NCBI GenBank assembly: GCA_905215045.1
Contig: CAJMOO010000100.1
Coordinates: 1 to 6,548, forward strand
Source of the DNA: an uncultured bacterium
Lineage (GTDB): Bacteria > Bacillota_A > Clostridia > Lachnospirales > Lachnospiraceae
Length of the DNA stretch: 6,548 nt
Direction: 5' to 3'
The translations under genes and the position numbers were made by a program. Shown piece by piece: positions 1,842 through 3,936 of the stretch. The first letter of the stretch is position 1. The number at the start of each line of letters is the position of its first letter. The notes under the pieces were generated by a model. That model was not told the DNA's origin and searched no databases. It was given only the letters and a program-made list of their open reading frames with translations.

Positions 1842-1929
1842 ATTTCGAAAGTTTTTGTTTTTTCATTCAGGAGAAACGCGCGTGTCTTTACTCAATGAAT
1901 TGATTGAAGGCCTTTAGAAATCCTTCTTG

Positions 1930-1982
1930 ATAAAAAGAAAAGGCGTTATGAAGAATGATCTGTGTCATCTCATAACGCCTTT
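1930..1982 (-). terminator. Intrinsic terminator/attenuator in the amt-PII leader
   Basis: Read on the minus strand, AAAGGCGTTATGA (1982-1970) pairs perfectly with TCATAACGCCTTT (1951-1939), a 13-bp stem. The 18-nt loop contains a further small hairpin. The stem is followed by TCTTTTTAT (1938-1930), so it has the form of an intrinsic terminator for minus-strand transcription; on the plus strand only a short T-run follows. It lies only a few bases downstream of the predicted amt-PII transcription start, so it must stop or be bypassed by amt-PII transcripts. It is also the first good terminator after the response regulator gene, so it may end the upstream operon as well. Confidence 0.82.
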
Positions 1983-1988
1983 GTTATG
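1954..1988 (-). promoter_or_regulatory. Candidate ANTAR-type dual-hexaloop antiterminator
   Basis: Two short hairpins compete with the terminator. P1 is CATAAC (1988-1983), hexaloop AAAGGC (1982-1977), GTTATG (1976-1971). P2 is GATGA (1969-1965), loop CACAGA (1964-1959), TCATT (1958-1954), five pairs with one G-U. P1 uses the 3' arm and loop that form the left arm of the terminator, so P1 and the terminator exclude each other. ANTAR proteins such as EutV and NasR bind paired hexaloops with A at position 1 and G at position 4. P1 fits exactly; P2 has the AxxG spacing displaced by one base, a weaker match. The 5' arm of P1 lies at the predicted RNA 5' end, so its full stem depends on the exact start. 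The function is inferred; the fold and the mutual exclusion are visible. The downstream ammonium channel gene is the kind of target expected. Confidence 0.5.
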
Positions 1989-2074: not shown

Positions 2075-2788
2075 TTAACTATTTAATTCGTTCTCAAGCA
2101 TACGGTATCCGACTCCGACTTCTGTAAAAACATACTTTGGAACTGCTGGATTTTCCTCGATCTTGCGGCGGATATTTGCCATATTTACTCGCAAAATCCT
2201 ATTGTTCGTATCTGCGTGAGGTCCCCAGATATCTTTGATGATAGACTCATATGTAATAACCTTTCCTGCATTCTCTGCAAGAAGGGATACCAGTTTATAT
2301 TCAATCTGTGTAAGACGGATTTCTTCTTCTCCAAGAAAGACTCTTCGCTTATCAAAATCAATCTTTAACTGACCTGCATGATACATTGGTGTCTTCGTCT
2401 CTGCTCCCATTGGTTGTCTTCTATGTCTTAGGGCAGTACGGATTCTTGCAAGCAATTCCTGATTACCAAATGGTTTGGTGATATAGTCATCTGCTCCGGC
2501 ATCCAGGGCTTTTACTTTCTCTGATTCTCTGTTTCTCGCAGAAATCACGATGATCGGCGTAACTGCCCATTTTCTGATTTCAGAGATCACATCGATTCCA
2601 TCCATATCCGGCAGTCCAAGATCTAATAAGATCACATCCGGACAGTATGATTCCGCACACTGGATCGCCTGATTTCCTGTAGTCGCTATGATTGGTTTGT
2701 AGCCATTGGTTTTTAAGATCGTTGATATAAAATTGCCAATGTTTTCTTCATCTTCAGCAATCAATACATTAAATTTTATCTCTGTCAT
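2075..2788 (-). CDS. KdpE-like OmpR/PhoB-family response regulator
   Basis: A cytoplasmic DNA-binding regulator of 237 residues, the normal length for the family. The receiver domain (about 6-120) has the acidic pocket Glu12/Asp13, the phospho-acceptor Asp56 in LLDLGLPDMDG, Ser83 and Lys105 in TKPFG. The winged-helix domain (about 136-232) has RLTQIEYKLVSLL, NAGKVITYESI, the DIWGPHA turn and the closing TEVGVGYRM. LDLGLPD, the spacing and the WGPHA element match KdpE most closely among OmpR-type regulators. The ATG overlaps the kinase stop codon by 4 nt (ATGA), and a GGAGG lies 10 nt upstream inside the kinase gene, so the pair is probably translationally coupled. Targets cannot be read from the sequence; no kdpFABC genes are in the window. 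Partner assignment is firm; a K+-linked role is only a family-based guess. Confidence 0.92.
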   Translation of the reverse strand: MTEIKFNVLIAEDEENIGNFISTILKTNGYKPIIATTGNQAIQCAESYCPDVILLDLGLPDMDGIDVISEIRKWAVTPIIVISARNRESEKVKALDAGADDYITKPFGNQELLARIRTALRHRRQPMGAETKTPMYHAGQLKIDFDKRRVFLGEEEIRLTQIEYKLVSLLAENAGKVITYESIIKDIWGPHADTNNRILRVNMANIRRKIEENPAVPKYVFTEVGVGYRMLENELNS

Positions 2789-3936
2789 AGTTCCTTTTCC
2801 TCCGTCAATTCTTTTTCATCCATTGGCAGACTAAAACTAAACTCTGCTCCATCCTCATAGTTTCTTGCATAGACATCACCTTGATGTGCCATAACAATTG
2901 ATTTACAGATACTTAACCCAATACCCATACCCTTACGACTTTCATGATCTATAGCACCTGCACAACCGTCGAACAACTGGTCCAAGCGCTCTGGTGCGAT
3001 ACCATTTCCGTGGTCACGGATATAGAATACAACTTTGTTACCTTCTTCTTTGATATCAAGTTCAATAGGTGCATCACTTCCAGAATGTACCCATGCATTT
3101 TCCAAAAGGTTCATAATTACCTGCTCAATCAAAGTCGGATCCATTGGAACCATTAAAAAATCTTCTGGGATCTTTACCTTTAATTCACTGTCTGGATATC
3201 GCTTCTGATAACGCTGGATTGCTTCTGCTACAACTTCTTCGAGAGGTTCCGGTACTTTCTTTACATGTGGCTGTGTGTCACTTCCATTGCTCTGGATCCT
3301 CGTGATACTAAGCAGGTTTTCTACCATATTTAACAACCAGTTTGCATCTTCTTTGATTCCCATGACAAGCTGATCTTTTGCATCTTCATCCAGCTGGTCT
3401 TTGGCTTCTAAATACGTCGAACTTGCCCCGATCATTCCAGTCAGCGGAGTCCTAAGATCATGTGAGATCGCTCTTAATAAATTTGAGCGCATCTTCTCCT
3501 TTTCTTTCTCAATCTGAAGCTCATTGATCTGCTTGTTATATTCATTTAATTTTGCAAGTTCTTTCTCTCTCTTGACAGCTGCTTCTTTCTCTCGGTTTAA
3601 GCTTGTTGTTGTCATATTCGTGATGATTGCGATCACTAAAATTCCAAGAAATGTCATCGGATATCCGTCAATCATGAAATTAATCTTAAAGTATGGAAAC
3701 GTAAATCTCCAATTAATAAAAATAACGCTTAACAGTGAGGAAACAATTCCCCATCCATATCCTTTTGTATATCTTGAGATAAAAAAAGTTGCCAATGTAT
3801 AAATCATTGGCACATTAATGTTGTGAGCTGTCTGATAGAAAAAAATATGCGCAATGATGGTCGCAATGATCAGGATCGTGATCGAGATCAAAAAATCCTT
3901 CTCCCACTGCATCAAACCTTTTTCATTCTGCTCCAT
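2785..3936 (-). CDS. KdpD-like membrane sensor histidine kinase, short form
   Basis: A 383-residue sensor kinase that should autophosphorylate and pass phosphate to the regulator encoded next to it. The N-terminus has about four hydrophobic helices (near 14-33, 42-55, 62-76 and 93-108) resembling the DUF4118 membrane unit of KdpD. A highly charged, probably coiled-coil stretch (about 113-150) leads to the dimerisation helix with His159 in RAISHDLRTPLTG. The ATPase domain shows the N box (NLLENAWVHS, about 276-285), the G1 box DHGNGI (308-313) and the G2 box GMGIGLSIC (336-344). Full-length KdpD is more than twice as long because it starts with cytoplasmic KdpD and USP-like sensor domains; these are absent. 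The start lies 2 nt after the DUF1934 stop, with a GGAG site 7 nt upstream, so the protein is complete rather than truncated by mutation. The signal is unknown. Confidence 0.9.
   Translation of the reverse strand: MEQNEKGLMQWEKDFLISITILIIATIIAHIFFYQTAHNINVPMIYTLATFFISRYTKGYGWGIVSSLLSVIFINWRFTFPYFKINFMIDGYPMTFLGILVIAIITNMTTTSLNREKEAAVKREKELAKLNEYNKQINELQIEKEKEKMRSNLLRAISHDLRTPLTGMIGASSTYLEAKDQLDEDAKDQLVMGIKEDANWLLNMVENLLSITRIQSNGSDTQPHVKKVPEPLEEVVAEAIQRYQKRYPDSELKVKIPEDFLMVPMDPTLIEQVIMNLLENAWVHSGSDAPIELDIKEEGNKVVFYIRDHGNGIAPERLDQLFDGCAGAIDHESRKGMGIGLSICKSIVMAHQGDVYARNYEDGAEFSFSLPMDEKELTEEKEL

Follow-up and report, generated by a model that had tools for sequence, protein, structure and literature searches.

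The amt-PII leader and its two exclusive folds

The window (the whole stretch of 6,548 nucleotides that was analyzed) carries on its minus strand, at 85–1827, a gene for an ammonium channel fused to a C-terminal P-II domain (amt-PII; PF00909 plus PF00543). The leader of this gene raises the question of whether it is controlled by an ANTAR-type antiterminator and, if so, whether with one hexaloop hairpin or with two. The start codon was read as position 1827 (MTKEIM) by analogy with relatives, which begin MTKEIM; on the same grounds a start at 1866 was set aside.

The promoter, TTGACA-N17-TATAAT, lies on the minus strand at 1995–2023 and agrees with the consensus at 12 of 12 positions. It is the only one of 23 promoter-like sites in the window with this score, the total being not above shuffle level (21.6). 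From the usual promoter spacing, the transcript is expected to start near 1989–1987. The stem of a hexaloop hairpin, CATAAC[AAAGGC]GTTATG (1971–1988, minus strand), the proposed antiterminator, starts 6 nt past the −10 box; its loop AAAGGC occupies 1982–1977, and its 6-bp stem CATAAC/GTTATG ends in a C-G closing pair. An intrinsic terminator follows at 1932–1982 on the same strand, with 13-bp arms (1982–1970 and 1951–1939) and a T-rich tail (1941–1932). The loop and 3′ arm of the hexaloop hairpin form the 5′ arm of the terminator, so the two folds are mutually exclusive, and the terminator thus overlaps the antitermination hairpin as in ANTAR dual-hexaloop target RNAs. The predicted fold of the leader is the terminator (−20.9 kcal/mol, z −6.4, equalled by none of 200 shuffles), which is far more stable than the hexaloop hairpin (−20.4 versus −4.0 kcal/mol). 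A G4 hexaloop in a closed stem, the minimal single-hexaloop ANTAR motif according to passages of PMC8934654, is present as AAAGGC on its 6-bp stem. Both the 13-bp terminator with T-rich tail right after a consensus promoter and the hexaloop AAAGGC sharing the left terminator arm (P1, here 1988–1971 of the minus strand) had been proposed in a sequence-only reading of this DNA, and both were confirmed.

The terminator was missing from a simple terminator scan of the window because its loop exceeds the 8-nt limit of that scan. A search of the window with 4227 Rfam models gave five matches at E up to 10, all under their gathering scores and rejected for that reason (eukaryotic miRNA and snoRNA families, SAM-II).

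Two other features were observed around the leader. A block CGCGCG-TTT within a weak hairpin (1862–1897, minus strand) was recognized by eye in four amt leaders of the genus, those of the window and of genomes G025, G002 and G001. Upstream of the amt promoter and on the same strand, 2075–3936 encodes a response regulator and a DUF4118 histidine kinase, a pair which we take to be KdpDE-like.

Conservation and covariation in relatives

The leaders compared were those of the best 80 of at least 591 matching amt-PII relatives, plus the window, 81 in all; three (L056, L060, L071) are shortened by contig ends and one (L051) holds a run of N. Elements were defined by a loop [AG]ANG[AG]N, a stem no shorter than 3 bp and at least seven of eight terminator pairs. 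In this set of best-matching loci, 60 of the 81 leaders hold 77 elements, and 21 hold none by the same definition.

For alignment, 54 elements having a terminator and a stem no shorter than 3 bp were picked by hand, nine more being dropped by eye, so the covariation in this set is there partly by construction. Position 1 of the loop is A in 49 elements and G in five, A2 and G4 are invariant (54 each), and G5 occurs in 52. The C-G closing pair is found in 54/54, these elements having been chosen for the motif. Around this nearly fixed loop the stem varies (CATAAC/GTTATG, AAAGC/GCTTT, AAGAC/GTCTT, AACGC/GCGTT, TGTAC/GTACA). The hexaloop helix is 80.2% paired, with changes on both sides in five of six pairs, and its covariation score of 0.499 compares with 0.228 in shuffled alignments (0/500 as high) and with at most 0.147 after sliding. 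The terminator is 96.2% paired and scores 0.685 versus 0.251 shuffled. Covariation of P1 and the terminator, the check proposed with the initial reading, was thus obtained for both.

A shuffle test free of selection on the 5′ arm was run on terminators beginning [AG]ANG[AG]. Of 93 such terminators, 66 are preceded by a matching 5′ arm no shorter than 3 bp (shuffled mean 21.8, maximum 31) and 35 by one no shorter than 5 bp (shuffled 5.6, maximum 12), counts in which registers of one terminator may appear more than once. Among terminators lacking that start, a matching arm was found in 1/87.

One hexaloop or two

The sequence-only reading had drawn a double hairpin, with a second hexaloop, P2, inside the terminator loop: GATGA[CACAGA]TCATT, 1954–1969, minus strand. 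This part of the proposal did not hold, and P2 was rejected as a functional hairpin and judged a chance feature. Its loop has C at position 1 and A at position 4 and so lacks A1/G4, and the joint fold of P1 and P2 reaches a z of only −1.8, 14 of 200 shuffles being as good. P2 is absent from the amt leaders of three genomes of the genus group (G001, G002, G024), and G025 cannot serve to test it because its leader is almost identical to that of the window. Between the conserved hexaloop and the terminator end, an A1/G4 hexaloop on at least 3 bp occurs in 4 of the 77 amt-leader elements, the window's not among them. The window thus has one hexaloop hairpin where the dual-hexaloop target has two A1/G4 hairpins in tandem, and the 5–12 nt linker is lacking with the first hairpin. 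P1 of the earlier reading corresponds to the canonical P2, the hairpin overlapped by the terminator, and the absent partner is the canonical P1.

Each of the 77 elements was examined for a promoter in the preceding 70 nt. One was recognizable for 38, in 38 leaders, and the distance from its −10 box to the stem start is 5–15 nt in all 38, with a median of 11. Given a normal transcription start, this leaves no space for an upstream recruitment hairpin in these 38 elements, to which the 5′-end placement applies; among the 39 elements without a recognized nearby promoter are second copies and some that lie behind other genes.

Under strict rules, a scan for tandem hexaloops returned 75 single and no dual elements in the amt leaders, and 49 single and one dual in 48 loci of class genomes with an ANTAR gene. 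Of the four loci around EutV-like genes that served as controls, L295 and L296 gave two duals each, and L268 and L297 none. Under relaxed rules, by which 14% of random positions qualify as dual, the amt elements gave 73 single and two dual; the stems of both duals measure 3 bp and fall between the −35 and −10 boxes. A hidden upstream dual hexaloop was rejected on these results. The class elements gave 43 single and seven dual by the relaxed rules, three of them with 5-bp first stems (L215 of G032, L258 of G066 and L212 of G122). Each of these three genomes has an ANTAR protein bearing the acceptor Asp, an association of small numbers that includes kinship, and no dual was found in three other acceptor-Asp genomes examined (G030, G092, G127). 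An earlier, loose scan had given 5/71 duals; for random positions the figure was 18%, a control value raised by the true elements. The loci L265–L274 gave no dual by the first rules; looser ones picked out two weak cases, L267 in G084 and L269 in G074, the latter genome having an acceptor-less regulator. The short loci L289–L291 gave none and, since neither these nor L268 and L297 yielded any, the sensitivity of the scanner for duals is incomplete.

The candidate ANTAR regulator

Genome G025, whose amt leader is 94% identical, was used as a stand-in for the genome of the window. The search for an ANTAR gene that had been proposed gave one there (PF03861, 40.1 bits, cut-off 27.3). As read by eye, it follows a glutamine synthetase-like frame, as do four other ANTAR genes read. 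NitR likewise is an ANTAR protein encoded with glnA. Exactly one ANTAR gene is present in 19 of 20 genomes of the amt loci and in 10 of 11 genomes of the genus; the same search in 14 control genomes gave no match.

In a sample of 196 genomes of the class, 99 have an ANTAR gene above the cut-off and 86 have a match to the terminator model (E up to 1e-4, stricter filters). These matches occur in 64/99 genomes with the gene and in 22/97 without it (Fisher 2.6e-9, with common ancestry still included in the figure). The model used for the genome scan pairs the terminator only and leaves the 5′ arm unscored. When this arm was considered, in 48 of the 64 genomes with the gene and 20 of the 22 without (the best match of each, the second best for G082), it was paired in 44/48 versus 3/20. 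Two of the four ANTAR-positive loci without the arm end at a contig end. Elements in genomes without an ANTAR gene (those 3/20, and also G024 and G018) possibly reflect incomplete assemblies.

Concerning the protein, the best relative with a solved structure is EutV (E 7e-5), and conservation was examined in columns assigned by our own alignment. ANTAR proteins were obtained for 58 of the 99 genomes, and 57 were aligned after one unreadable sequence was dropped. The phospho-acceptor Asp is lacking in 42/57, G025 having Gly at that column; the G025 protein gave no receiver match in Pfam and thus has no EutV-type receiver with an acceptor Asp. The acidic pair at the receiver start is missing as well from many of the proteins that bear the acceptor. 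Model matches accompany 31/42 acceptor-less and 7/15 acceptor-bearing proteins, a difference that is not significant (p = 0.11).

The RNA contacts of EutV were taken from passages of PMC8934654, according to which Tyr164 stacks on G4 of the loop. Lys149 and Glu160 are conserved in 57/57 class proteins and Met172 in 56/57, all three being present in G025. At the Tyr164 column, both the G025 protein and 39 of the 42 acceptor-less proteins carry His, and in G025 Arg142 is replaced by Val and Lys147 by Glu. These substitutions weigh against the ANTAR reading of the element, and the conserved residues weigh for it. Ahead of the ANTAR domain, where EutV forms a coiled coil, several relatives have a segment rich in Arg/Lys and containing a proline (e.g., L091 and L086; IERRRRKARQKPRERS in L091), so dimerization may differ.

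Genes behind related elements

In genomes G025, G002, G022 and G019, 41 of 54 model matches (E up to 0.1) were read, and 24 of these have the hexaloop motif with a 5′ arm of at least 3 bp. Products were named by family searches for ten plus ten proteins and the remainder by eye. The 24 precede amt-PII fusions (three), a separate amt with a PII gene (two), amino-acid permease–iron alcohol dehydrogenase fusions (two), nitrilase-like proteins (two, the frame of L160 being split), PxpB, a sodium:alanine symporter, a tyramine oxidase subunit B-like protein, and a 705-aa glutamine synthetase-like protein (under the family cut-offs) with a glutamate synthase-like frame. The 705-aa protein is presumably of type III. 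The others precede the atpB operon (two), a 96–99-aa protein (three), orphan or unclear positions (four) and IleRS genes (two), the leaders of the last being probably T-boxes in our assumption. Matches without a 5′ arm, among them those at rnf, rib and IleRS genes (by eye), were put down to ordinary terminators or leaders of other kinds. The expectation that such targets stand ahead of nitrogen genes was borne out by amt, PII, glutamine synthetase-like, PxpB, nitrilase-like and amino-acid carrier genes. In G016, an element precedes the glutamine synthetase–ANTAR operon itself; in G025, none of the listed model matches lies before that operon.

Several of these positions deserve separate mention. 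The permease–iron alcohol dehydrogenase fusions of 881–882 aa follow the hexaloop in L162 (annotated) and L180 (by similarity). In two genus genomes, the F0F1 ATP synthase operon has a promoter and GAAC[AAGGGT]GTTT or AAAC[AAGGGT]GTTT upstream of atpB (L163, named by family search; L186, by eye). The 96–99-aa protein lies behind an element in three genus genomes (L158, L168, L177), that of L158 having no match in Pfam or NCBIfam. Orphan hexaloop-terminators with a consensus promoter occur in L159 (G025, C1:2136305), L182 (G002), L104 (G001) and L144 (G021), with no same-strand frame of at least 70 aa beginning within 300 nt. A similar leader precedes a PII-amt operon in L134–L136, L142 and L143. 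The orphans are candidates for an ANTAR-sequestering small RNA or a relic.

Proposed mechanism and alternative explanations

The amt-PII leader is, with good probability, a single-hexaloop ANTAR-type transcription attenuator/antiterminator that switches on amt-PII and other nitrogen genes; the binding, the antitermination and the signal are what we infer. RNA polymerase would start at the hexaloop hairpin or a few bases before it, so that the hexaloop would be the first structure leaving the polymerase. Unaided, the far more stable terminator is expected to form, in keeping with the computed folds and energies, and amt-PII would be off. An active ANTAR regulator, encoded beside glutamine synthetase, may bind the AAAGGC loop (G4) and the C-G closing pair and hold the hairpin; GGCGTTATG could then not pair with CATAACGCC, and transcription would read through into amt-PII. 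The same switch would act ahead of the other nitrogen genes. To judge by the genes under control, nitrogen limitation is the most likely signal; as there is no phospho-acceptor Asp in the closest regulator, it would probably not pass through ordinary phosphorylation. The earlier proposal that an ANTAR regulator switches on amt-PII under nitrogen limitation therefore stands as regards the mutually exclusive ANTAR-type hexaloop and terminator, supported by sequence and relatives, and the ANTAR gene of G025, while nitrogen control and binding are put forward as probable.

It could be argued that the leader is a canonical dual-hexaloop target in which the second loop, that of P2 or of a hairpin that escaped notice, has degenerated or shifted. 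Passages of PMC3369931 give the canonical motif two loops, P2 can be drawn in the window, and the class sample includes three convincing duals (L215, L258, L212). This is nevertheless quite improbable, since the strict scan left none of the 75 amt elements as dual and the relaxed one only two, with 3-bp stems placed within promoters, and since P2 is missing in three sister genomes and an A1/G4 hexaloop at its position is rare (4/77). Somewhat less improbable, though still unlikely, is the use of two hexaloops with the second one distant, in a downstream tandem attenuator, on another transcript or on a second dimer bound to RNA. By permissive criteria, some chance matches included, 17 of the 60 element-bearing leaders hold two or more elements, and passages of PMC8934654 describe the EutV dimer as binding one hexaloop at a time; by those same criteria, however, 43 of the 60, including that of the window, hold one, and the same passages report that a linker 20 nt longer abolishes EutV antitermination.

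The hairpin might instead serve another protein or RNA regulator, the association with ANTAR genes being due to shared ancestry only. The His in place of the G4-contacting Tyr in most of these proteins and the relatedness included in the Fisher test lend themselves to that reading. We hold it to be improbable, because the loop and closing pair fit the rule for EutV (A1, G4 and fixed closing pairs, in passages of PMC3369931), the core contacts are conserved, and the presence of the 5′ arm differs sharply between genomes with and without an ANTAR gene (44/48 versus 3/20). The strength of the terminator would also suit a plain constitutive terminator beside which a hairpin arose by chance. That is hardly credible, however, for one placed just past a consensus promoter and whose 5′ flank covaries with it in relatives.

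The single-hexaloop antiterminator being preferred, a tentative extension, possible rather than probable, is that across Clostridia ANTAR antitermination commonly relies on one hexaloop at the RNA 5′ end, bound as it emerges and without a recruitment hairpin. A phosphorylation-independent pseudo-receiver regulator made with glutamine synthetase would then read nitrogen through the enzyme or its ligands, and dual hexaloops would occur mainly with acceptor-Asp regulators.

Comparison with known systems

ANTAR targets were defined by Ramesh et al. 2012 as two hairpins, both required and separated by 5–12 nt in Enterococcus faecalis; passages of that paper (PMC3369931) state that the EutV system requires both hairpins in vivo and already report dual-hairpin matches ahead of ammonium transporters and P-II genes. 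PMC8164766, in the part consulted, likewise demands two stem-loops, allowing a linker of 2–25 nt. Parts of PMC8934654 present the current model, in which the ANTAR dimer visits two hexaloops in turn to overcome the terminator, together with a crystal structure in which it binds one, and its authors call for the study of natural single-hexaloop sites. In the present element, a single hexaloop does take part in a race with the terminator; it would thus act like an ANTAR antiterminator, and yet it falls outside the dual-hexaloop family definition. Since this leader class provides dozens of single-hexaloop candidates with a matching regulator, the requirement for a second hairpin becomes directly testable. 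The class also offers a candidate nitrogen-control circuit for gut Lachnospiraceae, of which our literature searches found no description.

With NitR, an antiterminator of clostridial ammonia assimilation (PMC4676874, as far as consulted), the proposed regulator shares nitrogen assimilation and the nature of an antiterminator protein. The orphans L159, L182, L104 and L144 resemble the ANTAR-sequestering small RNA EutX/Rli55, in the description given in parts of PMC8934654, in carrying hexaloops on a short RNA, but they have one hexaloop and a terminator.

The other comparisons are those with EutV-like targets. The control loci L295 and L296, analyzed with the same scanner in the same bacterial class, share a P2-like hairpin with a terminator; they differ in their P1-linker-P2 arrangement, with linkers of 6 and 9 nt and of 9 and 9 nt, e.g., GTAC[AACGGC]GTAC -6- AAGC[GATGAA]GCTT. 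The eutP antiterminator of E. faecalis, the target of EutV described in passages of PMC3369931 and PMC8934654, has in common with the amt element the G4, a mostly A1 loop, a fixed closing pair, a hairpin overlapped by an intrinsic terminator and a nitrogen theme, the P2 of eutP corresponding to the hairpin found here. Unlike eutP as described there, the amt element has neither the recruitment hairpin P1 nor the 5–12 nt linker, its hairpin lies at the 5′ end of the RNA wherever the promoter is visible, and position 5 of its loop is G in 52/54 elements.
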